Assembly (NCBI RefSeq): GCF_900112415.1
Contig: NZ_FOLV01000005.1
Span: 62,001 to 126,000, forward strand
DNA from: Bacillus sp. 491mf
Lineage (GTDB): Bacteria; Bacillota; Bacilli; Bacillales; Bacillaceae_G
Length of the DNA: 64,000 nucleotides
Direction: 5' to 3'
Shown here: positions 13,229-31,710 of the stretch, piece after piece
How the letters are laid out: every line of letters begins with the position of its first letter
Position numbering within the stretch: position 1 is the first letter of the stretch
The notes under the pieces: model-generated
Database searches by the model: none
What the model was told of the DNA's origin: nothing
Seen by the model: the letters and a program-made list of their open reading frames with translations, nothing else
Made by a program: the position numbers and the translations under genes

Positions 13229-13245
13229 TTGTATCACCTCTCCTT

Positions 13246-13259: not shown

Positions 13260-13543
13260 TTTATATAAACTAAGAATGTTATTTATTTCACAATTAATGT
13301 ATGCATGTATAGATGATTAGTTCCATTATAAAACAATATTGCCACTGTATTAAAGTGTATTTTAGACAATTTTGTGAACAAATCTAAAAATGAAAGCGTT
13401 TTAATTGCTTATTATTAATAATACACCAATTAAGCATGATAATTCAATATAATATAATAGAAAGATTAATTCTTACTATTAAGGTAACCAAAAAAATTTT
13501 TATCTTGAAATAAAGTAACTACTCAGTCACTCTATGAAAAAAA
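13260..13543. other. AT-rich gap with a repeat remnant, left edge of the eut locus
   Basis: No credible gene is seen. The gap contains a weak cre-like sequence near 13390 and, at 13515-13536, a segment matching the left end of the MITE-like element at 36786. The eut terminator follows directly. Confidence 0.6.
13515..13536. repeat. Solo terminal-repeat remnant of a MITE-like element
   Basis: GTAACTACTCAGTCACTCTATG matches the left terminus of the element at 36786-36962 (GTAACTACTCA, then four extra bases, then GCCACTTTATG), and both continue into an A-rich run. No matching right end was found nearby, so this is either a remnant or a chance fragment at the edge of the accessory block. Confidence 0.45.
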
Positions 13544-13566
13544 GGCATAATGATTATATTATGCCT
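13544..13566 (-). terminator. Terminator of the eut locus
   Basis: GGCATAAT and ATTATGCC form a perfect stem around a six-base loop. On the minus strand it is followed by a T7 run, 41 bases after the eutQ stop. Confidence 0.85.
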
Positions 13567-13606
13567 CCCAAATTCTTATTTTATCTCACATTAATGTGCT
13601 CTAGTT

Positions 13607-14071
13607 CTATGCTTGTGATGCCCAATCCGCTGGATATGTAACGTACATAAAACGAGCATATTCAGGTACAGAAAATTGAATTTTTGTTCCCTTCGGAATG
13701 AGAATAATTTCACCTGCTTGTGCACTTACTTTCCGGCCATCAATTATTACTTCTAGTTTACCTTCAATTACATAATCAATTTCATCGTAGTTCAAGGTCC
13801 AATCAAATGTCGTTTCTTTCATTTCCATTATACCGCAGCCTAAACGTGGACTTTCTTCTAAAGAAAAAATGTCTTTACAGTAAACTATATCCTCTTGTTT
13901 ACCTGTATTTAAACGGTCTGTTTCAGCTACTTTAACCGTTGGTAATTGTACAGATATTACTCCACTTTCGTCACGACGACTAAACATTTCATTTTGAGGC
14001 GTATTTCCTATTTTCTCTGCAATGATTTTACGAACAAGATCTTCAATAACTTGTTTATCCAATGTATTCAT
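13607..14071 (-). CDS. eutQ: EutQ, cupin-fold ethanolamine utilisation protein
   Basis: 154 residues. The C-terminal ~100 residues form a cupin barrel (ESPRLGCGIMEMKETTFDWTLNYDEIDYVIEGKLEV..., then AGEIILIPKGTKIQF). The N-terminal helix LDKQVIEDLVRKIIAEKIG looks like a microcompartment encapsulation peptide. It is shorter than enterobacterial EutQ, which has a longer N-terminal part. EutQ of Salmonella has acetate-kinase activity and is needed anaerobically; whether this one does is unknown. It is the last gene of the operon, four bases after eutH. Confidence 0.9.
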   Translation of the reverse strand: MNTLDKQVIEDLVRKIIAEKIGNTPQNEMFSRRDESGVISVQLPTVKVAETDRLNTGKQEDIVYCKDIFSLEESPRLGCGIMEMKETTFDWTLNYDEIDYVIEGKLEVIIDGRKVSAQAGEIILIPKGTKIQFSVPEYARFMYVTYPADWASQA

Positions 14072-14074
14072 GAC

Positions 14075-15190
14075 TTACATAGCCTCCTTTTGTTGATTAG
14101 CATCTTTTTTATTTTCAAGCAATCTTTTTGACATAAAGATCGCTACAAACACAGCTGAAATACCCCCAACAAACTTTCCAACTATCATTGGAAAAATCAT
14201 GTCTTTTGCTACACCAGCTACAAATCCTAAATGGTCACCAAAGACAAAACTTGCCGATACAGCAAACGCGACATTAATTACTTTTCCTCTAGCATCCATA
14301 TCCTTCATCATGCCGAACATCGGAATATTATTTGCAAGTGTAGCAACCATACCAGCTGCTGCAATTTCATTCATTCCAAGCATTTTTCCAAGTCTCATTA
14401 ATGGTTTCTTAAATACTTTCGTAATTACAAATACCATACAGAAAGCACCTGCTAATACAATCGCGATATTTCCAACGATTTCAATTCCTTCATCGATCGG
14501 TGCAAGACCAGGAATAATTGTTATATTTGTTAACTGTTTCACAATTCCACACACTAAACCAAGTGTTGCCAGAATGACGATAAACTTCCCGAAAATTGTA
14601 AATCCTTTAACCATTCCATCCGGGAATTTCCAAAGTCCTAACACGATTAACACAGCAAAAATAATAATTGGCACTAAGTTTGATAGAATCATTGACACAG
14701 AATATCCTGCAACCAGTCCACCAATAAAACAACCTAAAGGAATAGTAATAATGCCTGATAAAACACCTGTTGCTAAAAACTTATGATCTTCTTTTTGAAT
14801 AATTCCTAATGCGACAGGAATAGTAAATACAATTGTTGGGCCTAACATAGAACCTAAAATAACTCCTGCAAACATTCCAGCATCTGGGTCTTTGGCTAAT
14901 TCTAATGCTAATGAATACCCACCCATATCATTAGCTAATAAACTTGTCGCAAACATAGATGGATCTGCTCCCAAAGCACTAAATACTGGAACAACAATTG
15001 GGCTTAATATCTTTGCAAGTACAGGTGATAATGAAATGATACCGACCATCGCCAAGGTTAATGATCCCATCGCCATTATCCCTTCATCAAACTGCTCGCC
15101 GAGTCCAAATTTATTACCAATACACTTATCAATAGCTCCAAGTATCATAAAAATAACCATTAAATAAATAATAATCTCATTAATGCTCAT
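14075..15190 (-). CDS. eutH: EutH, ethanolamine permease
   Basis: 371 residues with ten or eleven hydrophobic helices. The family motifs MGSLTLAMVGIISLSPVLA, MFATSLLANDMGGYSLA and FVFGDHLGFVAGV match EutH. It brings ethanolamine into the cytoplasm, mainly important at low external concentration because the uncharged form diffuses. GGAGGGG precedes ATG 15190. It lies between the PduT-like shell gene and eutQ in one operon. Confidence 0.95.
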   Translation of the reverse strand: MSINEIIIYLMVIFMILGAIDKCIGNKFGLGEQFDEGIMAMGSLTLAMVGIISLSPVLAKILSPIVVPVFSALGADPSMFATSLLANDMGGYSLALELAKDPDAGMFAGVILGSMLGPTIVFTIPVALGIIQKEDHKFLATGVLSGIITIPLGCFIGGLVAGYSVSMILSNLVPIIIFAVLIVLGLWKFPDGMVKGFTIFGKFIVILATLGLVCGIVKQLTNITIIPGLAPIDEGIEIVGNIAIVLAGAFCMVFVITKVFKKPLMRLGKMLGMNEIAAAGMVATLANNIPMFGMMKDMDARGKVINVAFAVSASFVFGDHLGFVAGVAKDMIFPMIVGKFVGGISAVFVAIFMSKRLLENKKDANQQKEAM

Positions 15191-15209
15191 TTGTTCCCCT
15201 CCGTTCTTC

Positions 15210-15752
15210 TTATAAATATTTTTTCATCAACTCACTTGGCGAAGGAATGACTGTATAGTGAACAACACGTTTCTTATCAATAGATAAAACAGCTATTTTC
15301 ATACCTTGTTCTACATCACTAACGGTACCTGTAAAAATCGCCACAAACTTACCGCCAATCCCCATGCCTAGTGTCATTCTTTTTAATGATATAGTCGCTT
15401 CTTTTAACGCCTTATTTATCGAAAAAATTCCTGCTGATACATTTGATGCTTCAAATATTCCAACAGCATGCGTCTCTTGTTGAGGATATCGATTTTTTAA
15501 GCCAAGTAAAATCTCTTCATGTACTCCATGTAGTAAAAATGTATCTACTAAAAACCCCTTTGCTTCATTCACTGCTTTACCCATCGCTTCATTTACATCT
15601 TCAGCTTCACCACTTATAATAATTAAAAATTTCCCTGGACAAATAGGACGTAAAACATGCATTTCAACTGAGGACTGCTTAAGCATTTTATCAGCTAGTT
15701 CGTATCCTTTACTTATACTCCTTAGTTCCAATACACCGATAGAACTATTCAT
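15210..15752 (-). CDS. PduT-like tandem-BMC shell protein with predicted Fe-S cysteine
   Basis: 180 residues from ATG 15752 (ATG 15755 possible). It has two BMC domains: residues ~4-85 (SIGVLELRSISKGYELADKM) and ~96-178 (HAVGIFEASNVSAGIFSINKAL). This is a trimer-forming shell protein similar along its length to PduT. Cys38 in RPICPGKF coincides with the PduT cysteine that holds a 4Fe-4S cluster at the threefold pore, which in Pdu may pass electrons across the shell. It overlaps eutN by eight bases. Absence of other pdu genes suggests it serves the Eut compartment. Confidence 0.88.
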   Translation of the reverse strand: MNSSIGVLELRSISKGYELADKMLKQSSVEMHVLRPICPGKFLIIISGEAEDVNEAMGKAVNEAKGFLVDTFLLHGVHEEILLGLKNRYPQQETHAVGIFEASNVSAGIFSINKALKEATISLKRMTLGMGIGGKFVAIFTGTVSDVEQGMKIAVLSIDKKRVVHYTVIPSPSELMKKYL

Positions 15753-16017
15753 CATTAACCTCAATAGAATCAATAATTCCTACAATTACTGCGTCAACAG
15801 GAACATCTTGATTTTCAACAGACGCCCGGGCAGCACTTCCTTGGCTGACAAGTACGGTATCACCAATTCCAGCACCAGCATTATCTGCAGCAACAAATAT
15901 ATCAGTATCTCGCGTTTTATTATGCGAAAGAGGTTTTATCACCAAAAACTTCCAACCGTTTAACTTTTCATCTTTCCTAGTTGCCCAAAGACTTCCAACA
16001 ACCTCTCCAATAATCAT
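15745..16017 (-). CDS. eutN: EutN/CcmL-type pentameric shell vertex protein
   Basis: 90 residues, the normal length of EutN/CcmL/PduN. It starts MIIGEVVGSLWATRKDEKLNGWKFLVI and contains VAADNAGAGIGDTVLVSQGSAAR, the conserved loop of this family. Pentamers cap the vertices of the polyhedral compartment. It lies 12 bases after the upstream gene and overlaps the PduT-like gene. Confidence 0.95.
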   Translation of the reverse strand: MIIGEVVGSLWATRKDEKLNGWKFLVIKPLSHNKTRDTDIFVAADNAGAGIGDTVLVSQGSAARASVENQDVPVDAVIVGIIDSIEVNDE

Positions 16018-16029
16018 AGTGTCCCTCCA

Positions 16030-16713
16030 TCAAGCCCTTTGTACATGCATCTGTTGCATACGAATATAATCTTTTGCTAATGGCGTAATAATACTATTTG
16101 GTGTCACGATAATTTCCTTCACGTTTCGTAAATGAAATTTTTTCAAATCGGCTTCTGTAATTACTTTTTTGGAGATCACCGCTGCTTCCGTTTGAAGTTG
16201 AGTTTCAACGTTCATTTGGCTATTTGTAACTTGTACATTATGTACTACTTTTTTCTCACAACACGACTGCAATAGCTGTGTGTCATGAATAATCTTTATA
16301 CCAAAACTTTCTACTTTCGCTTGATATTCTTCATACATTTTGAATAAATGAGCATTAGCTGTTTGTTTATATTTTTTATAGACAAGACCATCATCTAAGG
16401 CAATCACGTTCTTTCCTTTTAAAAGCATTGTTAAAATAAATCGTTCCCGAGGACTACTACTTAAGCCGTTAGCAAGATTCCCTAACAATTGAATACACAT
16501 TTTAGGAATAACAACGACATCACAATCCATTACCGAATCATCAAAGTATTGAATAGTGTATTCATGTGCTAAAATGCCTTCAAGTTGTGGATAAACTTCT
16601 GTTGCAACAAACACTGCTGTTTTTAGGGGCTCTGCTTTCTTTGCAACTGGTATATTTTGAAGACGGTTATACACTTCTTTCGTAATAACTTCAACTAATG
16701 CTTCCACGTTCAT
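16030..16713 (-). CDS. Eut-locus associated protein of unknown function
   Basis: 227 residues. Position and sequence fit the conserved hypothetical protein found between eutD and eutN in Listeria and Enterococcus loci. The N-terminal amphipathic helix EALVEVITKEVYNRLQNI resembles encapsulation peptides. A central part (about residues 30-135) alternates beta strands and helices in a flavoprotein-like way, and a C-terminal stretch LKKFHLRNVKEIIVTPNSIITPLAKDYI resembles the short EutT/EutQ-type N-terminal domain. It contains a Cys pair (SCCEKK). Probably lumenal; activity unknown. Confidence 0.85.
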   Translation of the reverse strand: MNVEALVEVITKEVYNRLQNIPVAKKAEPLKTAVFVATEVYPQLEGILAHEYTIQYFDDSVMDCDVVVIPKMCIQLLGNLANGLSSSPRERFILTMLLKGKNVIALDDGLVYKKYKQTANAHLFKMYEEYQAKVESFGIKIIHDTQLLQSCCEKKVVHNVQVTNSQMNVETQLQTEAAVISKKVITEADLKKFHLRNVKEIIVTPNSIITPLAKDYIRMQQMHVQRA

Positions 16714-16725
16714 CTTTTCACACTC

Positions 16726-17361
16726 CTAGGTACTTTTTTTTATAATCTTTCCGATCGTACCTTTAACAAAACCACAAGCATTTGCCTCATCATAATCAAT
16801 GTGCATATACGTCTCATATGATGAACTAACCCGTATGACAACATCATCAAAAATTAATGGACGTTTTCCAAATACCTTTACTTGAACTATTTCACCATTT
16901 ACAACATTATTTTTCTTTGCGTCTTCTGGGGTCATATGAATGTGACGTTTCGCTACAATAACACCATGATTAAGATGTACAACATTTTTCCCTGTCGAAA
17001 GAACAATACCTGGTGTTCCGTCAAGTTGTCCGCTTTCTTTAATAGGAGCTTTAATTCCTAACGAAACTGCATCTGTTTGTGATATTTCAACTTGTGTCTG
17101 TTTTCGTTCTGGTCCTAATACCACTACATTATGAATAACTCCTTTTGGACCAATTAATGTTACACGCTCTCTACATACATATTGTCCAGGTTGAGATAAA
17201 TCTCTTAATTTAGTTAACTCGTATCCAGAACCGAATAATAAATCAATTGTAGTTCTACTTAAGTGCACGTGTCGGCCAGAAGCTTCAATTTCAATACATG
17301 TTTCTTTTTGTACACGTTTTAATATTTCATCTACGAGACTATCCATTAATTGATTGTTCAT
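16726..17361 (-). CDS. eutD: Phosphotransacylase EutD, PduL type
   Basis: 211 residues. Two metal-binding motifs are visible: ASGRHVHLS (about residues 28-36) and AKRHIHMTPEDA (about 137-148), the histidine pairs that bind zinc in PduL. This is the non-homologous PduL-type enzyme, not Pta. It converts acetyl-CoA and phosphate to acetyl phosphate and recycles CoA inside the compartment. The N-terminal helix NQLMDSLVDEILKRVQKE resembles an encapsulation peptide. It lies 14 bases after eutT. Confidence 0.93.
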   Translation of the reverse strand: MNNQLMDSLVDEILKRVQKETCIEIEASGRHVHLSRTTIDLLFGSGYELTKLRDLSQPGQYVCRERVTLIGPKGVIHNVVVLGPERKQTQVEISQTDAVSLGIKAPIKESGQLDGTPGIVLSTGKNVVHLNHGVIVAKRHIHMTPEDAKKNNVVNGEIVQVKVFGKRPLIFDDVVIRVSSSYETYMHIDYDEANACGFVKGTIGKIIKKST

Positions 17362-17375
17362 TGCTTCCTCCTGTT

Positions 17376-18134
17376 TTATTTGTATTTATTTGTCCGAACT
17401 TTAAACATCAGAATCCAAAAAAGAGACGATAAACGATTAAGTGCACGAATAATATCTTCGCGTTCAATCGCCCCATAATTATTTTTAAATGCTTCATAAC
17501 CAAGTAATTCTGTCTCTCGAGTAAGTGTTCGGAGCGAATTTAACATAATAACTGCTTCTCCCATTTCATAGCTAGGTTGAAAATGATCCAGACCAAAGTA
17601 TTTTTTCGGATGATGCGATTGTTCACGTAATTCTTTCTGTGTCATATTTAACAAAAAAAACTCTTCTACCGTTTCCCCTAATACTTCACATCGAACTAAG
17701 TTTCGAACAAACATCAAAATCTCCTCTAAATCCTTTGCAAGCTTTGGAAGACTTTGTTTCGTCGCTAAAATTTGCGCTTCTAAAATCTTCGCTTCTAGTG
17801 AATCAAGTTTCCCACGAAAAATAATCCGAGGATGATCTTTAAAAACTAATAAATTACCGTACAATTGTGTCATATGTTCTGGCTTTTCATCTAATGAACC
17901 ACCATAAATGGTCTGATAACGCATTTTCTTCTCTTTAGGTGTTTCCTTTACTTCATCATCTTTCTCTTCTTGCCTCTTTTCTTTAGCATAAGAAAGTTTA
18001 ATATGATGGTCGGATAAAAAACTTTTAGCAGAAGGTGTCAAAATAACTCCTTTTTGAACTTCATATACATCAATTTCTTTCAGATTTTGATCTTTAAAGT
18101 GCTTTCTTAAGTAACTTTCCGTAATAACAGCCAC
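17376..18134 (-). CDS. eutT: EutT, ATP:cob(I)alamin adenosyltransferase
   Basis: 252 residues if translated from GTG 18134, which has AAGGGATG seven bases upstream and gives MAVITESYLRKHF; the longer frame uses TTG 18164 without a good ribosome site. The N-terminal domain contains LTPSAKSFLSDHHIKL. The core has HMTQLYGNLLVFKDHPRIIFRGKLDSLEA and a C-terminal helical bundle. It makes adenosylcobalamin for EutBC. The HX11CCX2C metal motif of Salmonella EutT appears absent, as I recall for Listeria EutT. A stable hairpin separates it from eutM. Confidence 0.9.
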   Translation of the reverse strand: MAVITESYLRKHFKDQNLKEIDVYEVQKGVILTPSAKSFLSDHHIKLSYAKEKRQEEKDDEVKETPKEKKMRYQTIYGGSLDEKPEHMTQLYGNLLVFKDHPRIIFRGKLDSLEAKILEAQILATKQSLPKLAKDLEEILMFVRNLVRCEVLGETVEEFFLLNMTQKELREQSHHPKKYFGLDHFQPSYEMGEAVIMLNSLRTLTRETELLGYEAFKNNYGAIEREDIIRALNRLSSLFWILMFKVRTNKYK

Positions 18135-18214
18135 ACTTTCACATCCCTTAATAAGTGGTGCCAAGCTTTTGGTTACGATGAAATTATCAAACTAAATTTC
18201 AAGTTAGATAAGAG

Positions 18215-18242
18215 GGATGCAGATGGTTTTCCATCTGCATCC
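18215..18242. other. Perfect intercistronic hairpin between eutM and eutT
   Basis: GGATGCAGATGG and CCATCTGCATCC form a perfect 12-base stem with a four-base loop (AAAA on the transcript) ten bases after the eutM stop. No T run follows on the minus strand, so it is more likely an mRNA 3'-end stabiliser or partial terminator that raises shell protein EutM relative to the distal genes. Confidence 0.75.
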
Positions 18243-18251
18243 TAACTCTCA

Positions 18252-18536
18252 TTATTCTGCTGTTTTCGGTAAAATCGCATCTACTTCTGAATGTGGTCTT
18301 GGAATTACATGAACTGATAATAACTCTCCTACACGCTCAGCTGCTGCTGCACCTGCATCTGTTGCAGCTTTTACTGCACCAACATCACCTCGAACCATAA
18401 CAGTTACCAATCCAGCACCTACTTGTTCTTTACCAATTAATGTAACGTTTGCTGCTTTTACCATTGCATCTGCTGCTTCAATTGCTCCTACTAACCCTTT
18501 AGTTTCTACCATTCCTAATGCATTTGCGTTTGCCAT
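18252..18536 (-). CDS. eutM: EutM, major hexameric BMC shell protein
   Basis: 94 residues, a canonical single BMC domain. It starts [27 protein letters not shown] and ends with [16 protein letters not shown], matching EutM/PduA/PduJ facets. Hexamers tile the shell and their central pore probably passes ethanolamine. It has GGAGG before ATG 18536. The hairpin downstream may protect its mRNA, fitting a need for high abundance. Confidence 0.97.
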
Positions 18537-18574
18537 AATATAATTCCTCCTAATTAAATGTTTTTATAATAAAA

Positions 18575-20041
18575 TTAATTAATCTTTTCTAAAATACGTT
18601 GCACAATCATGTTAATAAGCTCTTCATTTTCATTTAAGTTTGTTGTTTTTTCTTCTAGAATAGGTGTATTCTCTTGCAGATCCTCTAACTCTCTTACACC
18701 ATATGCAATTCTTCTTACATTAAATAAATTTTCCGGTCCAATATTATCCGATGTCGAACTTCCACCTACTGCTCCGCAACCGAGTGTTAACGCTGGAACT
18801 AAATTTGTCGTTGCACCAATTCCTCCTAATGCTCCGGACGTATTCACTAGTAAACGAGATACTGGTTTTTTTAACGCAAATTCACGAATTACTTCTTCAT
18901 TCTCAGAATGAATGATAAGCGTATGCCCTGCACCTTCATTATGTAAAATTTCAATGCAGCGATCACATGCAGATTCCCAATCTTTTTCTGTATAAAATGC
19001 TAGAATTGGTGCTAATTTTTCTCGAGAATAAGGAACATTGCTTCCAACATGAGTTTCTTCTGCAATTAAAACTCTTGCACTTGTAGGTATATTTAACTTT
19101 GCTAATGACGCAATGTGTTCCACACTTTTTCCGACAATTTGAGGATTCATCGAACCATTCGCACGCATAATAAATTCCGATAATTTTTCACTTTCTTCTT
19201 TAGATAGGAAGTAAGCACCTTGTTTCTTTAACTCTTCCATAACAACTTGTTTGCTGCATTCTTCCACAACAATGGATTGTTCAGATGCACAAATTGTTCC
19301 GTTATCAAACGTTTTAGAATCTAAAATTCGTTTGACAGCCAAAGGAATATTTGCACTCTTTTCAATGAAAGCTGGGCCATTGCCCGGGCCCACACCAATG
19401 GCTGGTGTTCCAGATGAATACGCCGCTTTAACCATTGGAGTCCCACCTGTAGCTAAAATGAGATTAGTATCTTTATGCTTCATTAATTCGTTCGTTCCTT
19501 GAACTGTTGGAACAGTCATACAGCTAATTGCTCCATCAGGACAACCAACTTGTTTCGCAGCTTCATTAATTATTTTCACCGTTTCTAAAATACACTTTAA
19601 TGCATTAGGATGAGGTGAAAACACAATACTATTGCCTGCTTTCAGTGAAATTATTGCTTTATACAGCACTGTTGATGTTGGATTTGTTGATGGAATTAAT
19701 CCCGCTATTACTCCAACAGGAACAGCTACCTCCATGATCTTCGTCTCTTTATCATCACTTATAATTCCTACTGTTCTCATGTCTTTCACTGATTCGTAAA
19801 CATGCTTTGATGCAAAACTATTTTTGAGAATCTTATCTTGCCAACGACCAAAACCTGTTTCCTCATTCGCCATTTTCGCTAATTTTTCTCGATGTTTATA
19901 ACCAGCATCTGCGATAGCTTTCACAATTGTATTAATGTTCTCTTGCGACATAGTCGCTAATTTTTGCTGTGCACTTTTTGCTTTTTTGACCAAATGACGT
20001 ACTTCTTGGATAGATCTTAAATCTTTATCATATATCTCCAT
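18575..20041 (-). CDS. eutE: EutE, CoA-acylating acetaldehyde dehydrogenase
   Basis: 488 residues of the aldehyde dehydrogenase fold. The catalytic cysteine is in NGTICASEQSIVVEE (about residue 260), with the NAD-binding segments PVGVIAGLIPSTNPTSTVLYK and GVGPGNGPAFIE. It oxidises acetaldehyde to acetyl-CoA inside the compartment. The C-terminal tail NENEELINMIVQRILEKI looks like an encapsulation peptide, here at the end and not at the start. Its ATG shares one base with the stop codon of the preceding BMC gene. Confidence 0.96.
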   Translation of the reverse strand: MEIYDKDLRSIQEVRHLVKKAKSAQQKLATMSQENINTIVKAIADAGYKHREKLAKMANEETGFGRWQDKILKNSFASKHVYESVKDMRTVGIISDDKETKIMEVAVPVGVIAGLIPSTNPTSTVLYKAIISLKAGNSIVFSPHPNALKCILETVKIINEAAKQVGCPDGAISCMTVPTVQGTNELMKHKDTNLILATGGTPMVKAAYSSGTPAIGVGPGNGPAFIEKSANIPLAVKRILDSKTFDNGTICASEQSIVVEECSKQVVMEELKKQGAYFLSKEESEKLSEFIMRANGSMNPQIVGKSVEHIASLAKLNIPTSARVLIAEETHVGSNVPYSREKLAPILAFYTEKDWESACDRCIEILHNEGAGHTLIIHSENEEVIREFALKKPVSRLLVNTSGALGGIGATTNLVPALTLGCGAVGGSSTSDNIGPENLFNVRRIAYGVRELEDLQENTPILEEKTTNLNENEELINMIVQRILEKIN

Positions 20042-20595
20042 TATTTATCCTCCCCCCTATTACATTGTTGAATTGCGTCAATCAACTGTTCTTTTTTTGC
20101 ATACTTTATTTGGCTTTTTGGTATATTAGATATATCTAGCTTGTAAGCAAGTTTTCTTAATTCAACTAACTTCATTTGTTGAAAAGATGGTACCTTTCTC
20201 TCGGAAACTACTGCTATTTCGCTAGTATTAGGTACTTGCACACTTTCATTCTCCTGTGCTTCTTCTATTTTTTGATACGAATCAACAACCTCTTGTATTT
20301 GCTCTTCTATATAACTAGTAGGCTCGTCTTTAATCATTTTGTGTAATTCTTCATGTAATCGTGCAATTACATGGCTCGTTATTAGTACGCCCAGTTTTTT
20401 AGCAGCTTCTTCCCCTGCTTCCACAGCAGCTTGAATTGCGCCAACATCTCCTGTTAATTGAACAGTAACAAGCCCACCTTTTATTACTTCACAGCGTATC
20501 AATGTGACATTTGCTGCTTTCAATGCTGTGTCAGCGGCTTGAACTGCACCTAAATATCCGCGAACTTCAATGAGACCTAACGCTTGATTTTCCAT
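20041..20595 (-). CDS. BMC shell protein with C-terminal Rho_N/SAP-like domain (EutK-like role)
   Basis: 184 residues. Residues ~1-93 are a BMC domain (ALGLIEVRGYLGAVQAADTALKAANV ... HVIARLHEELH). A flexible acidic linker (~94-140) leads to SFQQMKLVELRKLAYKLDISN and AKKEQLIDAIQQC at the end, a pattern typical of the small helix-turn-helix Rho N-terminal/SAP fold. E. coli EutK also joins a BMC domain to a small nucleic-acid-binding-type domain, so this may be a functional counterpart with a different fold. Cargo or RNA/DNA attachment is possible. It lies between eutL and eutE with a one-base overlap to eutE. Confidence 0.85.
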   Translation of the reverse strand: MENQALGLIEVRGYLGAVQAADTALKAANVTLIRCEVIKGGLVTVQLTGDVGAIQAAVEAGEEAAKKLGVLITSHVIARLHEELHKMIKDEPTSYIEEQIQEVVDSYQKIEEAQENESVQVPNTSEIAVVSERKVPSFQQMKLVELRKLAYKLDISNIPKSQIKYAKKEQLIDAIQQCNRGEDK

Positions 20596-20609
20596 CTATT
20601 ATCAACACC

Positions 20610-21263
20610 TTAATAGCTCGTTGGATTATCAGCTACATATTGTACTGCTGTTGCAAAGGCATCACATGCTGCTTTGCAAGCAGATTGGCTACCTGTTAAT
20701 AATGCCCCGCCAAAATTCGTTTCAGAAGGAGGACCAAAGAAAGCTCCTATACTTACATCCGCTGCTTTTAATGCTGCATCTAGGGCATACATCGCTTCAA
20801 GAGGAGGTGCAATTAAATAGGCAATTGCTTCACCTTCTTTGACATTGGCTACCTCTGATAAATAAGTACCTGTACGTGAAACACAATGTGCAAAGTAAGT
20901 AATAGAATCATCGTCATTTGCACTAACAAAATGAGCACCGCTCTCCATGAAATCAACAACTGCATTTAATCCACTTTTTACTTCTGCTGGACTTGGCCCA
21001 GCCAAAATACCAATTACTTCACCTGCAAGTTTCGTAGAGGCATTAGCAGATCCCGCAAACATACTCTTTGCATATACAACATCTACCTCTGCTGATTTAG
21101 TAGCTTCATCTAAAGCGGTATATGTCACATCATCAATATCTGCGGTAATAATTCCTAAACTTTTTTGGTGAGACTTGAGCTTAAGCTTTTCTGCCATATC
21201 AGGACTTACGTTCGAAATTAATTTAATACTTAAAACGGTTGCGCGAATTGGCTCGTTCTTCAT
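20610..21263 (-). CDS. eutL: EutL, trimeric tandem-BMC shell protein
   Basis: 217 residues, close to the 219 of E. coli EutL. It contains two circularly permuted BMC domains, with diagnostic segments LKSHQKSLGIITADIDDVTYTALDEATKSA, FAGSANASTKLAGEVIG and FFGPPSETNFGGALLTGSQSACKAACDAF. EutL trimers have a gated central pore. It lies 14 bases after eutC and before the BMC-Rho_N protein. Confidence 0.96.
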   Translation of the reverse strand: MKNEPIRATVLSIKLISNVSPDMAEKLKLKSHQKSLGIITADIDDVTYTALDEATKSAEVDVVYAKSMFAGSANASTKLAGEVIGILAGPSPAEVKSGLNAVVDFMESGAHFVSANDDDSITYFAHCVSRTGTYLSEVANVKEGEAIAYLIAPPLEAMYALDAALKAADVSIGAFFGPPSETNFGGALLTGSQSACKAACDAFATAVQYVADNPTSY

Positions 21264-21279
21264 AAATTGCCCTCCATTC

Positions 21280-22167: not shown

Positions 22168-22185
22168 TAACTCTTCCTCCTTCCT

Positions 22186-23550
22186 TTATTTTAAAAATAC
22201 AGATGCATCTCCAGCTTTTTTCGTTAGTTTCCCATTTTCAATAAAGCCCATCTTTTCCATCCATTGCTCAAATTCTCTAATTGGGCGTAATCCTAATAAT
22301 TCACGTAAAGTCGCTATATCATGATGACCTGTACATTGATAATTCAACATAATATCGTCTCCATGAGGAATTCCCATAAAGAAATTACATCCTGCAGTTG
22401 ATAGTAAAACAGCTAAATTTTCAATATCATTTTGATCAGCCTTCATATGATTCGTATAGCAAGCATCACAACCCATAGGGATTCCGGTTAATTTACCCAT
22501 AAAATGGTCCTCAAGACCTGCCCGAATAACCTGTTTAGAGTCATATAAAAACTCAGGGCCAATAAAACCAACTACTGTATTAACTAAAAATGGATCATAT
22601 TTTTTCGCAAACCCATAACAACGTGCTTCCATTGTTACTTGATCTACTCCGTGATGTGCTTCTGAAGATAATTCAGAGCCTTGTCCTGTTTCAAAATACA
22701 TTACGTTTGGTCCTGCTGTTACTCCTTCTTTTAATGCTAATTGACGCGCTTCTTCGATTGTCGCTGCATTAAAACCGAACGCTTCATTTCCTTTTTGTGA
22801 CCCCGCAATGGATTGGAAAATCAAACCGCTTGGAGCACCATTTCGAATTGCTTCCATCTGTGTTGTTACGTGTGCTAATACACATGTTTGCGTCGGAATA
22901 TCCCATTTTTCTCTAAAATCTTCAAATCTCTTTAAAACTCGGGTTACACTTTCCGCTGAATCATCAACTGGGTTTAACCCTATAACTGCATCTCCTACTC
23001 CAAATGTTAAACCTTCCATTACTGACGCTATGATTCCATCTGGATCATCAGTTGGATGATTCGGTTGTAACCTAGCAGATAACGTACCTTTTCGTCCAAT
23101 TGTTGTATTAGCATGTGCCGTAATTCGAATCTTTCTTGCACCGTAAATTAAGTCTAAATTTGACATAATTTTTGCAACAGCTGCCACCATTTCAGCTGTT
23201 AAACCTCTTGCAACCCGTTTAATATCTGCTTCCGTTGTATTTTCATTTAATATCCATTCACGTAGTTCTTCGACTGTCCAATTTTTTATTTCATTATAAA
23301 TACGCTCATTTACCTGGTCTTGGATAATCCGTGTTACTTCATCCTTTTCATAAGGAACAACTGGATTGTTACGTAGGTCTGCTAATGTCAGATTAGATAA
23401 AACTACTTTTGCCGCAACACGTTCTTCTGCTGAAGTAGCCGCTAGTCCCGCTAATTTATCACCGGATTTTTCTTCATTTGCTTTTGCTAATACGTCAATA
23501 ATTGATGTAAATTGATACATATGACCAAATAATTTTGTTTTTAAAATCAC
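22186..23550 (-). CDS. eutB: Ethanolamine ammonia-lyase large subunit
   Basis: 454 residues from GTG 23550, which has AAGGAGG seven bases upstream and gives the family-typical start ILKTKLFGHMYQF; the longer frame to 23568 overlaps that ribosome site. E. coli EutB has 453 residues. The (beta/alpha)8 barrel carries family segments such as IVGLNPV-like VIGLNPVDDS, GAPSGLIFQSIAGSQKGN and GCDACYTNHMKADQND. It holds the active site that uses adenosylcobalamin. It lies between eutA and eutC. Confidence 0.97.
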   Translation of the reverse strand: MILKTKLFGHMYQFTSIIDVLAKANEEKSGDKLAGLAATSAEERVAAKVVLSNLTLADLRNNPVVPYEKDEVTRIIQDQVNERIYNEIKNWTVEELREWILNENTTEADIKRVARGLTAEMVAAVAKIMSNLDLIYGARKIRITAHANTTIGRKGTLSARLQPNHPTDDPDGIIASVMEGLTFGVGDAVIGLNPVDDSAESVTRVLKRFEDFREKWDIPTQTCVLAHVTTQMEAIRNGAPSGLIFQSIAGSQKGNEAFGFNAATIEEARQLALKEGVTAGPNVMYFETGQGSELSSEAHHGVDQVTMEARCYGFAKKYDPFLVNTVVGFIGPEFLYDSKQVIRAGLEDHFMGKLTGIPMGCDACYTNHMKADQNDIENLAVLLSTAGCNFFMGIPHGDDIMLNYQCTGHHDIATLRELLGLRPIREFEQWMEKMGFIENGKLTKKAGDASVFLK

Positions 23551-23579
23551 AAAAGCTCCTCCTTCCATCTATCTCCTAA

Positions 23580-25010
23580 TTAATTGAAAACTAATGTTTT
23601 AATAACTACTGGCAAAACTTTACCGTTTGCTATCGGTTTACCAATATCGATATAATCACCGTTTTCTACTTGAATACTATCAATACATACAACTTCTTTT
23701 TTGCGATCCATTAATGCATACAATGTTTGTCCAAGTACTTTTGCTATATCGTGCCGTACAATAACTACGAGTGGATACTCCTTTTTCAGAAGTTCCTGCA
23801 TTCCTTGTACAATGCCTTTCGCATACTCCTGAATGTCTTGGAAACAAGGATTTTTCTTTCCTTCAAAAGCAATAGCAACTTTTTGTAGATCGTTTTCTAC
23901 TTTGTACCAATTTATCTTCTCGCAAATAGCTTTTGCCATTGCTTCCCCAGAACCATTTTCATCATCAAATGAAAGCTTTAGTATTGGAATATTTTTCAAT
24001 GGAAATGCGTCATCCGTATACGTAATCGTACTTCCGCTAACTTCTGTCGTATGGGATCCCGCTCCTACTACGGTAGCTCTAATCGTTTCATCCGCCTTAA
24101 CAACATTGAAACGGTGCATCAAAGCTGAATCAGCAATTGCTTTTCCAAGTAAAATTCCAATGTCTCCATAGCGGAAAACATCTTCATTTGTTTCATAGTA
24201 AATATAATCTGCTACACCTCCGGAGAATGATATGCATGAGATTTCATCTTGAAGCTTTAATCCTTTATTCGTAACAATCGCATCATAATAATGACTTCGC
24301 TCATGAATACCAACACTTTCTTCTAGCAGTTTTACCATATCTTGAATGATCGGCTTAAGTTTATTTGGCATTGCCGTTTGGCCAAGTGCTATATCATATC
24401 CTTTTTGCATAATAAGTTGTTGAAGCTTTGGTGATATGTATGTTATTTCGTGAGTGGATGGATGTACTTTAATTAACCTGCCACCAATATCTAGACATCC
24501 AGTGTCCTTTAGTTCTCCATGGGCAAATAATGCTAAATTACTCGTTCCACCCCCAATGTCCATATTTACAACGGAAGTAGAATGTTCCTTGGAATAACTA
24601 TGTATGCCAGCTCCCTTTGCAGCAATAATACTTTCTAAATCTGGACCGGCTGTCGCAACGACAAAATCACCCGCAAAACCACTTAATGTTAAAAGGACAT
24701 CATTTGCATTTTCTTTCCTTACTGTTTCCCCTGTAATTATTACTGCTCCAGTCCGAATCTCTTCCTTTTTGATTCCTGCTTTTGCATATTGTTCTTCTAC
24801 AAATGCTTTTATTTGATTGGCATCAATTTTCTTATTTGAAAGAAAAGGTGTGAAGCATATATCGCTTTTATAAACAACCTCTTTCTCACTGATAACAATA
24901 CGTGGAACTGAAAAAGAAGAAGCCATATTTTGGACATGAAGTTTTGATAGTACAAGTTGTGTTGTAGATGTTCCAATATCAATGCCAACACTTAATAATG
25001 TTTCTTTCAT
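23580..25010 (-). CDS. eutA: EutA, reactivating factor for ethanolamine ammonia-lyase
   Basis: 476 residues with an actin/Hsp70-like ATPase fold. The phosphate-binding motif VGIDIGTSTTQLV is near the N-terminus and NMDIGGGTSNLALF at about residue 150. EutA exchanges damaged cobalamin in inactivated EutBC. Expression is gated by a leader with two hairpins and a terminator (25045-25132), so it and the genes after it need EutV antitermination. GGGGGTG precedes the ATG. Confidence 0.95.
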   Translation of the reverse strand: MKETLLSVGIDIGTSTTQLVLSKLHVQNMASSFSVPRIVISEKEVVYKSDICFTPFLSNKKIDANQIKAFVEEQYAKAGIKKEEIRTGAVIITGETVRKENANDVLLTLSGFAGDFVVATAGPDLESIIAAKGAGIHSYSKEHSTSVVNMDIGGGTSNLALFAHGELKDTGCLDIGGRLIKVHPSTHEITYISPKLQQLIMQKGYDIALGQTAMPNKLKPIIQDMVKLLEESVGIHERSHYYDAIVTNKGLKLQDEISCISFSGGVADYIYYETNEDVFRYGDIGILLGKAIADSALMHRFNVVKADETIRATVVGAGSHTTEVSGSTITYTDDAFPLKNIPILKLSFDDENGSGEAMAKAICEKINWYKVENDLQKVAIAFEGKKNPCFQDIQEYAKGIVQGMQELLKKEYPLVVIVRHDIAKVLGQTLYALMDRKKEVVCIDSIQVENGDYIDIGKPIANGKVLPVVIKTLVFN

Positions 25011-25044
25011 TTTTTCACCCCCATCGCGTTATATAAGAGAAAAC

Positions 25045-25132
25045 AAAAAGGCTTAAAGTTATAAATATCCCATAACCATTGGAATTTATAACCTTAAGCC
25101 TCTTTGCTTAATTCTTTCTACAACGTTGTAGA
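25045..25132 (-). promoter_or_regulatory. EutV (ANTAR) antitermination leader before eutA
   Basis: On the minus strand hairpin P1 (25117-25132) is TCTAC-AACGTT-GTAGA and P2 (25094-25111) is TTAAGC-AAAGAG-GCTTAA. Both six-base loops have A at position 1 and G at position 4, the known ANTAR recognition rule. The 3' half of P2 is also the start of a long terminator stem (GGCTTAAGGTTATAAAT with ATTTATAACTTTAAGCC) ending in a T5 run. Phospho-EutV binding would hold P1-P2 and prevent the terminator. Confidence 0.9.
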
Positions 25133-25136
25133 TCTG

Positions 25137-26552
25137 TTATTTTTTAAATGTAATTGTAATTTTTGTACCGTTTATACTTGAATTCATTTGAATATTTCCT
25201 TTTAACTTGTCCTTCACATAGCTTTGGACAATTGTTAATCCTAAACTTCTATTCGCACATGTAGCAATATCAAATCCAGTCCCATCATCATTCACTTCTA
25301 TTGTAATATATCCTTGCTCTTCGATAACATTTACACGAATAGTACCATTTCTATTACCATTAAACGCATGCTCATATGAATTTTGCATTAACTCATTAAT
25401 AATAAGAGCAATTGCTACTGTACGATCACTATCAATATAAATAGCTTGATGCACATCCGTTTGAACATTAACATTCTTACAATCTATAAAACACCTTTGA
25501 ATATTGTAAATAATTGATTGAATAACTTCCACCATGTCTACACAATCCCCTAATTGTTTAGATAATAGTTCATGTGTAGCGGCAATTGCTAATATCCGAT
25601 TAACACTTTCATTTAAGCTTTTTTTCGCTTCATCACTCTTACACCTTCTACCTTGAATGCGAAGTAGAGAAGCAACTGTCTGTAAATTGTTCTTCACGCG
25701 ATGATGAATTTCACGAATTGCGACAGATTTAGAAATAATTTCAGCCTCTTTATCTTTCATCTCCGTTAAATCATGAAGAATAACTACGAGTCGAAAATCC
25801 TTTTCATAAATGAAATTCCTTTTTACCGAAAAATAATATGCCCCGATATGTATTTCCTTTTTACAAGATGAGGACGCATCCTCCATCATGATATCACCAA
25901 AAGTTGTTTGATCAAGAGAAAGATTATCATAATGTAAACCTTGGATATCTTCTAAATATCCTAAATTTCGATAGTAAGTATCTGCTATACTATTTTTCAA
26001 ACGTACGTAACCATATTTATCAAATACTAGAATTGCATCATCTAGCTGATTTGAAATAGATTCGTTAAATCGTACCATTGCCGTTAATGTCGACGAAACA
26101 TCTTCAATATCATAATGATTTTTTACAATATCAAAGTTCTCTTTTATAGCTTCACTTATATCCTTTTCTACTATTAGAACTGCAATCACTTTTTTCTTAT
26201 GTTTGATTGGATAAACAGTTTGTCTAACAAGTTGATTTTCTTGTGTCTTAGCGACTAACTCATGTGAAGATATACCTGTCTGTAGCGTCCGTAAGACACC
26301 TGGCTCATTTGCTCGAAGCGCCTTCTCTCCAACGACAGACTTTTTATAAAAAGATTTCCCATCTCTCGGATGACGGTGATATACAACCATTGCTTCATCA
26401 GAAAATCTAGATAAAACATCAATAAATAGATCGTATCCATCATACTTTTTTAATGTGCTAGTAGTTTGTGATACTTCTATGATTTTATTTATTTCGGCAT
26501 TTGTTAAATTCGTATACTTTTTACATAAATCTTGTATATGTAGACTAGTCAT
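25137..26552 (-). CDS. eutW: EutW, ethanolamine sensor histidine kinase
   Basis: 471 residues. The N-terminal ~130 residues form a sensor domain of the type found in PdtaS/EutW kinases (VVYHRHPRDGKSFYKKSVVG, TGISSHELVAKTQE). A PAS-like segment (about 165-270) follows. The H-box is REIHHRVKNNLQTVASLLRIQ and the ATP-binding N-box is NELMQNSYEHAF, with DDGTGFD and LGLTIVQ, i.e. a HisKA_2 kinase. It lacks membrane spans, so it senses cytoplasmic ethanolamine and phosphorylates EutV. It overlaps eutV by eight bases. Confidence 0.94.
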   Translation of the reverse strand: MTSLHIQDLCKKYTNLTNAEINKIIEVSQTTSTLKKYDGYDLFIDVLSRFSDEAMVVYHRHPRDGKSFYKKSVVGEKALRANEPGVLRTLQTGISSHELVAKTQENQLVRQTVYPIKHKKKVIAVLIVEKDISEAIKENFDIVKNHYDIEDVSSTLTAMVRFNESISNQLDDAILVFDKYGYVRLKNSIADTYYRNLGYLEDIQGLHYDNLSLDQTTFGDIMMEDASSSCKKEIHIGAYYFSVKRNFIYEKDFRLVVILHDLTEMKDKEAEIISKSVAIREIHHRVKNNLQTVASLLRIQGRRCKSDEAKKSLNESVNRILAIAATHELLSKQLGDCVDMVEVIQSIIYNIQRCFIDCKNVNVQTDVHQAIYIDSDRTVAIALIINELMQNSYEHAFNGNRNGTIRVNVIEEQGYITIEVNDDGTGFDIATCANRSLGLTIVQSYVKDKLKGNIQMNSSINGTKITITFKK

Positions 26553-27117
26553 ATGAAATCACGATTGTCCTAGCAATCTCGATTATCGGACACCTTCTAG
26601 TCATGCTTAATTTACGAATTGTTTCATATGCCTCCTCTTCAGATAAACCATTTTCCTTCATTAACATTCCTTTTGCTTTTTCTACTACTTTTCGTTCTGC
26701 AAGCTTTTTCGTAACCTTTGTTAACTCATTTTCTAACTTACGAACAGACTTACCTTTCGCAATACTAACTTCAATCATTGGAACTAATGACTTTTCATCA
26801 AGAGGTTTCACTAAATAACCTAAAGCCCCAATATTCGTTGCTTTTTCAATATTCGTAGAGTCACTGAATGCCGTCAATAAAATGACCCCTCCAGCTAACT
26901 GTTCTGAAATAATTCGTTTTCCCGCTTTCAAACCATCCAAGATAGGCATTTGAATATCCATAATTACTAAATCAGGTAAATGCCTTTGACATAACTCAAT
27001 TGCTTCAAAACCATCTGAAGCTTCACCTACTACATCGTAGTTCGCTTCTTCTAACATGTCACGAATATCCATTCTTGTAATAGGTTCATCATCGACTATT
27101 ACAATTTTCCTATTCAT
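26545..27117 (-). CDS. eutV: EutV, response regulator with ANTAR RNA-binding domain
   Basis: 190 residues from ATG 27117, where GAGGTG is nine bases upstream. Receiver domain residues ~3-118 with D9, D10 and phosphoacceptor D54 (IMDIQMPILDG) and K in YLVKPLDE. A coiled linker leads to the ANTAR domain (~132-186: LAERKVVEKAKGMLMKENG, then EAYETIRKLSMTRRC and IARTIV). Phosphorylated EutV dimers bind paired hairpins in eut leaders and prevent termination. Three such leaders lie in this locus. Confidence 0.95.
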   Translation of the reverse strand: MNRKIVIVDDEPITRMDIRDMLEEANYDVVGEASDGFEAIELCQRHLPDLVIMDIQMPILDGLKAGKRIISEQLAGGVILLTAFSDSTNIEKATNIGALGYLVKPLDEKSLVPMIEVSIAKGKSVRKLENELTKVTKKLAERKVVEKAKGMLMKENGLSEEEAYETIRKLSMTRRCPIIEIARTIVISYD

Positions 27118-27156
27118 TGTGGCATACACCTCATTATCTCAGCTGAATTTACACGA

Positions 27157-27594
27157 TTACTTTTTGTCATCTAAAAATCGTTTTATTTTATCTATTCCTA
27201 TGTTTTGCACGGCAGATATTTCAAATATTTGTTCCGCACCTGCTGTTTCTAAATGCTTTTTTGCTTGTTCGATCTTATCACGATTTTCCACTTGATCAAT
27301 CTTAGTTACTATGCCGATAATAGGCTGAGGAAAAACACTTCCAAATGCTGGAGGGAAGTAATTTTCTTCCTCTGTGCAATCATGCACAAGTCCTATTATA
27401 TCCGCATCTACACTTGTTACAATTAAGGCTTTATAGTAATGTCGATTTTCAATATACTCTCCAGGTGTGTCGATTGCATGATCAAAATTTTCAATTGCCT
27501 GCGTTTTCTTATACTCAATTACATGTTCATGTAATTGTTGACAAAGAGTCGTTTTCCCACTACCAGTTTTCCCGATAAAAATAACTTTTTTCAT
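27157..27594 (-). CDS. eutP: EutP, small P-loop protein
   Basis: 145 residues from ATG 27594, with GAGGAC upstream; the upstream in-frame codons belong to the end of eutS. The P-loop is GKTGSGKTT (residues ~8-16), followed by DTPGE, DCTEEENYFPP and TKID, a Ras-like GTPase motif set. EutP of Salmonella was reported to have acetate-kinase activity, which would make ATP from acetyl phosphate. It is a separate gene two bases after eutS and ahead of eutV. Confidence 0.93.
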   Translation of the reverse strand: MKKVIFIGKTGSGKTTLCQQLHEHVIEYKKTQAIENFDHAIDTPGEYIENRHYYKALIVTSVDADIIGLVHDCTEEENYFPPAFGSVFPQPIIGIVTKIDQVENRDKIEQAKKHLETAGAEQIFEISAVQNIGIDKIKRFLDDKK

Positions 27595-27595
27595 G

Positions 27596-27949
27596 TTATG
27601 TCCTCGTAATCTTTGCAGCTGAAAATCCAAGAATTGCTTGCAAGCCATTTAACACTTCATTTAAAGCAGATTCTACAGACGAAACATCACCTGTGATGAC
27701 TAATGAACCACTAAATCGATCGACAAAACCAATGGATACACCAGCAGCTTTTGTAGCAATATCTGCAGCAATAATAGAAGCTTCACTTGGTGTAATTGTT
27801 AAAATTCCAATTGACTCTTTTAACTCATTACCTAATCCTAGTTTCTTGTATATATCTTGATTTGGATTAGCGATTAAATGAGCTAAAGTTACTTGTTTCC
27901 CAGGAACATATTCCTGAATCACCCGTTGTTTTTCATTTTGTTCGCTCAT
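27596..27949 (-). CDS. eutS: EutS, bent hexameric BMC shell protein
   Basis: 117 residues, slightly longer than enterobacterial EutS. The core is [19 protein letters not shown], then [26 protein letters not shown] and [18 protein letters not shown], a permuted BMC fold. EutS forms shell edges. It is preceded by a two-hairpin leader with terminator at 28003-28080, so its expression depends on EutV. Confidence 0.95.
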
Positions 27950-28002
27950 GTCATCATCCTATCGTTATATAATAATTGATAAAATTTACTTATAAACACA
28001 CA

Positions 28003-28080
28003 AAGGCCTCTTAAAAATACACATAGATATTTTTAAGAAGCCTCATCGCTCTAATCAATAGTAACACGCCGTTGTGTTAC
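28003..28080 (-). promoter_or_regulatory. EutV (ANTAR) antitermination leader before eutS
   Basis: P1 (28061-28080) is GTAACAC-AACGGC-GTGTTAC, a seven-base stem with loop A1 and G4. P2 (28038-28051) is a short GAGC-GATGAG-GCTT hairpin whose loop keeps G4 but has G in place of A1. The terminator pairs CTTAAAAATA with TATTTTTAAG plus outer GGC/GCC pairs and is followed by TTTGTGTGTTT, a weaker tract than in the other two leaders. Confidence 0.8.
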
Positions 28081-28142
28081 CTCAAATATAATCCAACTTG
28101 AAAACGGTGTCAATACGTTCTCCTAGGAATAATTCTGATATT

Positions 28143-29282
28143 TTACAATTGATACATTTTGTTCAAAATTTCTTTTACATCATCTTTTGTTGGAATACGA
28201 GGGTTTGTTACTGTACATCCATCTTGAAGTGCTCCTATTGCAATTTCATCTCTTACCTCTGCTAATTTCTTGTTATCTATTCCACATTCTTTTAACGTTA
28301 GTGGCATATTTAATTGCTTTTGCATGTTTTTAATTGCATTCACTAAACTACGTACACCCACTCGTGGATTAGATGCTGATAAACCTAACAATTTTGCAAT
28401 GGCCGCATATCTAGTTGCTGCAACACTATACTCTCCTCCGATAAATCCCTTTAATTCCGCATTGTATTCAATGACGAATGGAAGTAAAAGGGTATTCATC
28501 CGTCCGTGCGGAATTTTAAATTTCGCTCCTGCAATATGTGCGATTCCATGATTCAAACCAAGAGATGTCGTATTGAATGCCATACCTGCAAGACATGATG
28601 CATTATGCATTTTTTCTCTTGCCTCAAGATCATTTCCATCTTTATACGCTTTTACTAAATAATTAAATACAAGACGAATGGCCTTCTCCGCCAATGCATC
28701 GGAAATATCATTTGCTTTCGTTGATACATATGCTTCAATTGCATGTGTCAATACATCCATACCTGTATCGGCAGTAACAAAATTAGGAACACTCACGACT
28801 AGTTCTGGGTCTAAAATCGCCTCCTCTGGAATAATCGCATCTGACACAATTGGATATTTTACATTCTTTTGCTTATCTGTAATAACAGAAAATGCGGTAA
28901 CCTCTGATCCTGTTCCACTAGTTGTCGGAATTGCTATGAACGGAATTTCTTCCTTTTTAACAATTTGTCTTGAAAAATCTTTCATCGCCTTTGCCGCATC
29001 AATAGCTGAACCGCCTCCAAGTGCAATCATTAAATCGGCATTAAATGTGCTCAATTCTTTAATCCCATCAACTACAACTTCAATTGGAGGATCAGGGACA
29101 ATATTACTAAAAATAATATATGTATTACTATCATTTAAATTTTTTTCAATATGTTCAATCATCCCAGATTGAACCATGAATGGATCAGTTACAATAAAAA
29201 TCCTTCTATCGTTAAATTCTTTTAATCGATTTAACGCTCCTTTCCCCATATAGATATCCGTCTTAAAACTTACTCTATCCAT
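28143..29282 (-). CDS. eutG: EutG, iron-dependent alcohol dehydrogenase
   Basis: 379 residues of the type III (iron) alcohol dehydrogenase family. The NAD-binding segment IALGGGSAIDAAKAMKDF is around residue 92. Metal ligands lie in AHAIEAY-like LTHAIEAYVST and GLNHGIAHIAGAKFKIPHGRMNTLLLP. It reduces acetaldehyde to ethanol, regenerating NAD for EutE. It is the first eut gene transcribed, with GGAGGTG before ATG 29282 and a EutV-type leader upstream. Confidence 0.92.
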   Translation of the reverse strand: MDRVSFKTDIYMGKGALNRLKEFNDRRIFIVTDPFMVQSGMIEHIEKNLNDSNTYIIFSNIVPDPPIEVVVDGIKELSTFNADLMIALGGGSAIDAAKAMKDFSRQIVKKEEIPFIAIPTTSGTGSEVTAFSVITDKQKNVKYPIVSDAIIPEEAILDPELVVSVPNFVTADTGMDVLTHAIEAYVSTKANDISDALAEKAIRLVFNYLVKAYKDGNDLEAREKMHNASCLAGMAFNTTSLGLNHGIAHIAGAKFKIPHGRMNTLLLPFVIEYNAELKGFIGGEYSVAATRYAAIAKLLGLSASNPRVGVRSLVNAIKNMQKQLNMPLTLKECGIDNKKLAEVRDEIAIGALQDGCTVTNPRIPTKDDVKEILNKMYQL

Positions 29283-29382
29283 ACTTACACCTCCAAAAAA
29301 ATAAAAACTTCTAATAATTCCCTTACATTACAAGAGAGACATGCTTAAGTAACTTTATCAAAATTAAAAAAGTGCATAAAAA

Positions 29383-29449
29383 AAGCTTTTAAAGGAATTT
29401 CTTCCTCTAAAAGCTTCTTTGCTATTTGTTATGTACACGCCATTGTGTA
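29383..29449 (-). promoter_or_regulatory. EutV (ANTAR) antitermination leader before eutG
   Basis: P1 (29434-29449) is TACAC-AATGGC-GTGTA and P2 (29412-29423) is AGC-AAAGAA-GCT; both loops have A1 and G4. P2's 3' arm begins the terminator AAGCTTTTAGAGGAA / TTCCTTTAAAAGCTT followed by a T7 run. The layout is the same as in the eutA leader. Confidence 0.9.
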
Positions 29450-29535
29450 ATATTTATTCATTTTTCATACTAACAATGTACTACTTCATCTATAGCATAG
29501 TCAACATCACATTAACTATATTTTTCAAAATTATC

Positions 29536-29551
29536 TACACGCCTTCGTGTA
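29536..29551 (-). promoter_or_regulatory. Orphan P1-like hairpin downstream of the ECF gene
   Basis: TACAC-GAAGGC-GTGTA has the same stem as P1 of the eutG leader but G in place of A at loop position 1. No convincing P2 follows. It could be a decayed duplicate or a decoy binding site. Confidence 0.4.
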
Positions 29552-29585
29552 TATAAGCCCTCTTCATTGAAGGTGTATGTGATCT

Positions 29586-30561: not shown

Positions 30562-30582
30562 CCTCGTCTCCTTTCTGCCCAA

Positions 30583-31705: not shown

Positions 31706-31710
31706 TGTAT

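Follow-up and report, generated by a model that had tools for sequence, protein, structure and literature searches.

The window analysed here, a 64,000-nucleotide stretch of Bacillus sp. 491mf (contig NZ_FOLV01000005.1, positions 62,001 to 126,000), carries an ethanolamine utilization (eut) microcompartment locus preceded by an adenosylcobalamin (AdoCbl) riboswitch, two vitamin B12-uptake genes and a short array of hairpins with six-base loops (hexaloops). We consider it likely that this is an EUT2A locus gained from, or held in common with, a Brevibacillus/Paenibacillus-type lineage, with a B12-uptake mRNA that ends in a decoy for the response regulator EutV. On the minus strand, 19 contiguous eut genes run from eutG to eutQ (13607 to 29282) with every frame open, as judged from the list of open reading frames (ORFs) and family profiles. 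The original prediction, made from the sequence letters, had described the same 19 genes with ends at 13544 and 29450, and these hold to within about 200 bases. The genes encode the lyase, its reactivase, the EutH permease, a cobalamin adenosyltransferase, the EutVW pair, six shell proteins of the bacterial microcompartment (BMC) and an acetyl-CoA branch that includes a PduL-type phosphotransacylase. In their order on the minus strand from 29282 they are:

28143 to 29282, minus strand: eutG, iron alcohol dehydrogenase (EutG equivalog model 200 bits against a cut-off of 556; name from gene order)
27596 to 27949, minus strand: eutS shell protein (NF012012)
27157 to 27594, minus strand: eutP (TIGR02528)
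26545 to 27129, minus strand: eutV, response regulator with ANTAR RNA-binding domain (PF00072 and PF03861)
25137 to 26552, minus strand: eutW, sensor histidine kinase (PF12282, PF07568)
23580 to 25010, minus strand: eutA, lyase reactivase (NF007992)
22186 to 23568, minus strand: eutB, ethanolamine ammonia-lyase large subunit (NF011649)
21280 to 22167, minus strand: eutC, lyase small subunit (NF003971)
20610 to 21263, minus strand: eutL shell protein (TIGR04502)
20041 to 20595, minus strand: BMC shell protein with a C-terminal tail, EutK-like layout (PF00936)
18575 to 20041, minus strand: eutE, acetylating aldehyde dehydrogenase (TIGR02518)
18252 to 18536, minus strand: eutM shell protein (NF012018 128.1 bits against a cut-off of 133; PF00936)
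17376 to 18164, minus strand: eutT, cobalamin adenosyltransferase (PF01923)
16726 to 17361, minus strand: eutD, PduL-type phosphotransacylase (NF040837; PF06130)
16030 to 16713, minus strand: eut protein of the TIGR02536 family (140.3 bits against a cut-off of 152.6)
15745 to 16017, minus strand: eutN/CcmL-type shell vertex protein (below the models' cut-offs)
15210 to 15773, minus strand: tandem BMC (PduT-type) shell protein (TIGR02526 232.5 bits against 250.3; PF00936 twice)
14075 to 15190, minus strand: eutH permease (NF011666)
13607 to 14071, minus strand: eutQ cupin (PF06249)

The products of eutG, eutM, eutN, eutT, the TIGR02536 gene and the PduT-type gene score below the NCBIfam cut-offs, and their naming draws also on Pfam or gene order. 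Judged from its genes, the locus is of the EUT2A class by the criteria given in the cited passages of Axen et al. 2014 (PMC4207490). EutBC is accompanied by the reactivase EutA, a PduL-like phosphotransacylase (PF06130, NF040837) stands instead of a Pta-like EutD, and a two-component EutVW pair with ANTAR, response regulator and histidine kinase domains replaces EutR. The alcohol dehydrogenase EutG, which those passages assign to EUT2A alone among the EUT2 sub-types, is matched at class level by an iron alcohol dehydrogenase in the eutG place that misses the equivalog cut-off. EutABC, the PduL-type phosphotransacylase, the dehydrogenase in the EutG place, EutVW, EutT and EutQ are common to the window and the EUT2A loci described there (PMC4207490); no essential difference was found against that description, and what is unusual is the host lineage and the insertion site. 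A strong hairpin without a T run was read by eye between eutM and eutT (18165 to 18251, minus strand); it may serve for processing or attenuation of the mRNA downstream of the shell gene. The tail of the 184-residue BMC shell protein (20041 to 20319, minus strand) weakly resembles Rho_N, at an E value of 0.0071 that is below cut-off, and may be a parallel to the tail of EutK, which is nucleic-acid-binding.

The region upstream of eutG and the three leaders within the locus contain the following elements:

30623 to 30776, minus strand: AdoCbl (B12) riboswitch aptamer (RF01482 106.8 bits, gathering threshold 50)
30583 to 30622, minus strand: hairpin and T run directly 3' of the aptamer (read by eye)
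30163 to 30582, minus strand: DUF4430 protein, first ATG at about 30561 (PF14478, E 9.5e-25)
29586 to 30173, minus strand: S component of an energy-coupling factor (ECF) transporter, CbrT-like (phmmer to 6fnp_A, E 8.6e-31; PF12822)
29592 to 29605, minus strand: hexaloop H2, with a stem of 4 pairs, within the final codons of the ECF gene (sequence reading)
29558 to 29573, minus strand: hexaloop P1 (R2 model, pairing analysis)
29536 to 29551, minus strand: hexaloop P2, with G and not A at loop position 1 (R2 model; flagged terminator-like)
29475 to 29504, minus strand: promoter-like site of eutG, TTGACT-18-TACATT (promoter scan)
29378 to 29449, minus strand: eutG leader, with a hexaloop at 29449-29434 and a second at about 29423-29412 that overlaps the terminator and has a stem of 3 pairs
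28003 to 28081, minus strand: eutS leader, with a hexaloop at 28081-28060, a weaker second at about 28052-28037 and a terminator at 28044-28003
25045 to 25132, minus strand: eutA leader, with hexaloops at 25132-25117 and 25111-25094, the second overlapping the terminator

The aptamer also scored 135.4 bits with a further model (R1) that has the window among its seven sequences. The hairpin that follows it is the probable terminator of the expression platform upstream of the B12-uptake genes, and by eye a similar hairpin and T run follow the aptamers of four other loci (L001, L003, L005 and L020). The DUF4430 protein, whose domain is described in a passage of PMC4350170 as the C-terminal domain of transcobalamin, is probably an exported B12-binding protein. 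The S component is homologous over residues 15-172 to that of ECF-CbrT (6FNP), described as a vitamin B12 transporter in a passage of PMC5997447, and is predicted to take part in B12 uptake; unlike ECF-CbrT, it is paired with a DUF4430 protein and linked to eut. The match to 6fnp_A and the AdoCbl riboswitch bear out the earlier claim that the locus has B12-uptake genes of its own; the riboswitch itself, the EutV leaders and the array had not been described.

P1 and P2 lie directly 3' of the ECF gene, and H2 precedes P1 by 32 nucleotides, the same spacing as in Brevibacillus laterosporus. A model of the array (R2) matched the window and 13 of the 80 fetched loci at E < 1e-4, eight of these being new to the model; altogether there were 37 R2 matches, 23 of which had E > 0.01 (for example window 51766-51806) and were set aside as chance or leader sites. 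With H2 added, 222 of 224 cells are paired across 16 sequences, and 23 cells have changed on both sides, compared with 7.7 in shuffles (none of 500 as high). Shifting the partner by 1-3 columns lowers the pairing to 25-60%. Two of five covariation measures, the pairs altered on both sides and the further types of pair, were not above shuffles. In whole genomes, R2 matches were found in 4 of 39 from the Brevibacillus family and 19 of 245 from the Paenibacillus family, and all 23 lie downstream of an AdoCbl aptamer and upstream of eutG; R2 had no match in 299 genomes of the window-like order, under stricter filters and with no known positive among them. In Paenibacillus the homologous array lies 123-131 nucleotides past the aptamer with no uptake gene between, whereas 1046 nucleotides and the two B12-uptake genes separate aptamer and array in the window. 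Three B. laterosporus-type genomes likewise have two B12-uptake genes in this place. A further hexaloop about 50-58 nucleotides past the aptamer was seen with several Paenibacillus arrays (L001, L003, L005-L007, L009, L010 and L030), which brings the non-coding form to as many as four loops.

EutV sites are described in a passage of PMC8934654 as hairpins with a six-base loop that has A at position 1 and G at position 4. The gaps before eutG, eutS and eutA hold five such strict hexaloops on the sense strand, one of which is P1 of the array within the eutG gap, and one on the other strand; shuffles gave a mean of 0.39 and none in 1000 reached five. The eutA leader, with two strict loops, shows the full arrangement of a dual hexaloop, a short linker and a second loop on the terminator; the eutG and eutS leaders have it with deviations. 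Between the ECF gene or array and eutG, a motif similar to the promoter-like site, with a spacer of 17-18 bases, is found in seven of eight leaders including that of the window; L011 is the one without it.

The locus interrupts a gene order that its relatives keep. One flank consists of yqhH and yqhG (10254 to 12717) with two small conserved genes, and the other of yqzE (32018 to 32218), aroK and comG; these include the flanks named in the original prediction. The inserted segment is:

13238 to 32017, no strand: interval between orf76 and yqzE, which in five relatives spans 0.4-2.1 kb and contains no eut genes

From orf76 (13007 to 13237) to yqzE the window has 18,780 bases. In the five relatives (L129-L133) the corresponding gap measures about 390 to 2,135 bases, and the order of yqhG, aroK and comG is kept, four of these relatives giving a match to aroK. 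Three further relatives (L134-L136) have yqhG and yqzE, no match to orf76 and no eut genes there. None of the eight relatives examined, drawn from 19 genomes of their family, has eut between yqhG and aroK/comG, as the predicted insertion would have it. EutB occurs in one of these 19 genomes at 59% identity, beside which the examined piece contains only eutA and eutC matches. Among 299 genomes sampled from the order, EutB was found at E 1e-100 or better in 36, the best at 74% and most of those listed at 54-65% identity, while among the matches listed for Brevibacillus and Paenibacillus the identity to the window reaches 88%. A plasmid search for eut gave Listeria eutH as its sole match. The nearest genomes came from class, order, genus and family searches, with best long DNA matches of 69% in one search and 73-76% in the others; 53 of 249 genomes went unscored in one of the latter. 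In B. subtilis this gap holds sinIR-tapA-sipW-tasA, according to the original prediction. The 5-formyltetrahydrofolate cyclo-ligase of the window scored 306 bits against 2jcb, which we take to be a B. anthracis protein, and 169 against YqgN, consistent with a cereus-type backbone. Our set of eut loci from a contig scan comprises at least 80 loci, in which the absence of cereus-group loci is weak evidence. In a passage of PMC4363355, ethanolamine-utilization clusters of orthologous groups (COGs) are unique to Lysinibacillus in comparison with 12 B. cereus-group strains, all of them B. cereus, B. thuringiensis or B. anthracis (15 selected according to another passage), which fits the view that eut is not core in the cereus group. 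A gain of the locus relative to its kin is well supported; it would have brought a full microcompartment pathway into a Bacillus chromosome, with a clear empty site for dating the arrival.

A quick LG+G4 tree was built from eleven Eut proteins of the window and of 40 out of 82 eut loci, all of which were kept. In it the window is the sister group of 16 loci from Brevibacillus and Paenibacillus, with a support of 100. Four other Bacillaceae loci, and those of Listeria, Enterococcus and Brochothrix, fall in separate groups. Grouping the window with the four Bacillaceae loci was rejected by the approximately unbiased (AU) test (p 2.8e-6, a cost of 284 log units), as was grouping it with Listeria, Enterococcus and Brochothrix (p 0.006, 63 log units). 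The lineage-specific gain put forward in the original prediction is upheld as to the insertion and the B12-uptake genes, but not as to the Listeria/Enterococcus-like tree expected for it. Brevibacillus laterosporus L002 has all 21 genes of the window's locus in identical order, and it shares with the near-identical L141 and L142 both this gene order and the succession of aptamer, uptake genes, array and eutG. The proteins of these three genomes are 43-98% identical to those of the window, and the flanking genes of the window were not found within the few kb of sequence examined in L002. Transfer of the locus is the simplest reading.

The best-known counterparts of the array are EutX of Enterococcus faecalis and Rli55 of Listeria monocytogenes, which sequester EutV without AdoCbl and are made as shortened RNAs with AdoCbl, according to passages of PMC5821096, PMC7602753 and PMC6317780. 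Similar to the window, they have an aptamer, a terminator and EutV-type hexaloops upstream of eutG, and the Paenibacillus array has their layout. In the window the aptamer with its terminator (by eye) and the tandem EutV-type hexaloops with A at position 1 and G at position 4 are present, P2 being the exception at position 1; however, EutX and Rli55 are non-coding with the aptamer adjoining the decoy, whereas the window has the two B12-uptake genes between them. Because the parts of EutX/Rli55 recur in the same order with B12 import between, we propose a coding EutX. In this model, EutW would sense ethanolamine and phosphorylate EutV, which would bind the hexaloops of the eutG, eutS and eutA leaders and prevent termination. 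The riboswitch transcript would encode the DUF4430 protein and the CbrT-like ECF subunit and continue into H2, P1 and P2. When AdoCbl is low, the mRNA would be made, B12 would be imported and EutV would be sequestered by the 3' end of the mRNA; when AdoCbl is high, transcription would stop at the riboswitch, no decoy would be formed and EutV would be free. That the B12-uptake mRNA is messenger and EutV decoy in one, with an array to which, in the window, the final codons of the transporter gene contribute, and that the non-coding EutX of Paenibacillus may derive from such an mRNA by loss of the two genes, is a proposal for which we see an even chance. A coding EutX is not announced in the titles or abstract openings of the open-licence PMC papers listed. 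Control of a protein-sequestering RNA by a riboswitch is well known from EutX/Rli55; an importer-encoding form, if true, would be a feedback loop in a single RNA and a route by which a non-coding regulator could arise from the 3' end of an mRNA.

In Mesobacillus zeae (L029, 4755-6240) an aptamer, a DUF4430 gene and an ECF gene precede eutG with at least one hexaloop after them; the R2 array was not found in this locus, which may represent a coding EutX that is independent or has diverged. The AU test rejected a single clade of all coding-decoy loci (p 0.001). One change between coding and non-coding forms suffices across the 16 decoy-bearing rows and three are needed with nine outgroup rows.

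Several points weigh against a gained locus with a decoy-bearing uptake mRNA. Loop position 1 is G in P2 and also in the eutS leader's second loop, P2 lacks a separate strong terminator behind it, and in L002 the H2 hexaloop lies just past the ECF stop codon, unlike in the window where it is inside the gene. R2 was built on six sequences including the window, whose own R2 score is therefore not independent, and the three genomes of B. laterosporus type, nearly copies of one another, amount to about one observation. Promoter-like sites in the stretch number 30, compared with 30.5 expected from shuffles. In the tree, eight rows are odd in composition and the joining of L048 with L065 drew a long-branch warning; in addition, no comparison genome was recognised as cereus-group. 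The deviant P2 loop and the want of a strong terminator of its own would suit an array of non-working relics, left in an ordinary gained eut locus when gene insertion split a non-coding EutX. We regard this as unlikely, since the stems are kept by paired changes between the window and B. laterosporus at equal spacing and the arrangement recurs in the three near-copy genomes. Slightly less probable still is an array that acts in cis, where EutV would control read-through from the B12-uptake genes into eutG without sequestration in trans: P2 is flagged terminator-like and no strong terminator stands between array and eutG leader, yet eutG has a dual-hexaloop leader of its own, the promoter-like site past the array recurs in seven of eight leaders, and the homologous array of Paenibacillus occupies the EutX position. 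Just as improbable is an old locus inherited vertically in this Bacillus lineage and lost in the relatives examined: its GC content of 31-39% is similar to the surroundings (which makes composition uninformative on gain), the ORF list and family profiles gave no recognisable mobility gene in the interval, and the longest repeat common to the interval ends, of 13 bases, is within chance (27 of 200 shuffles reach it), but the locus stands apart from the other four loci of Bacillaceae, relatives have a short gap free of eut, and the 12 cereus-group strains are reported without these COGs in the passage of PMC4363355.

Two further features of the window were noted. A 229-residue ORF (31016 to 31705, plus strand) lies within the inserted segment and is read in the direction opposite to eut; it belongs to no Pfam family at E 0.001, and tblastn gave no match to it in the eight relatives. 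Elsewhere in the window, two divergent S-adenosylmethionine (SAM) riboswitches (51330 to 51440, minus strand, and 51642 to 51761, plus strand) lie between methionine-synthase-like ORFs and two cystathionine-type ORFs, named by eye; a metH-like gene near them, if present, would mean a use of B12 outside eut.

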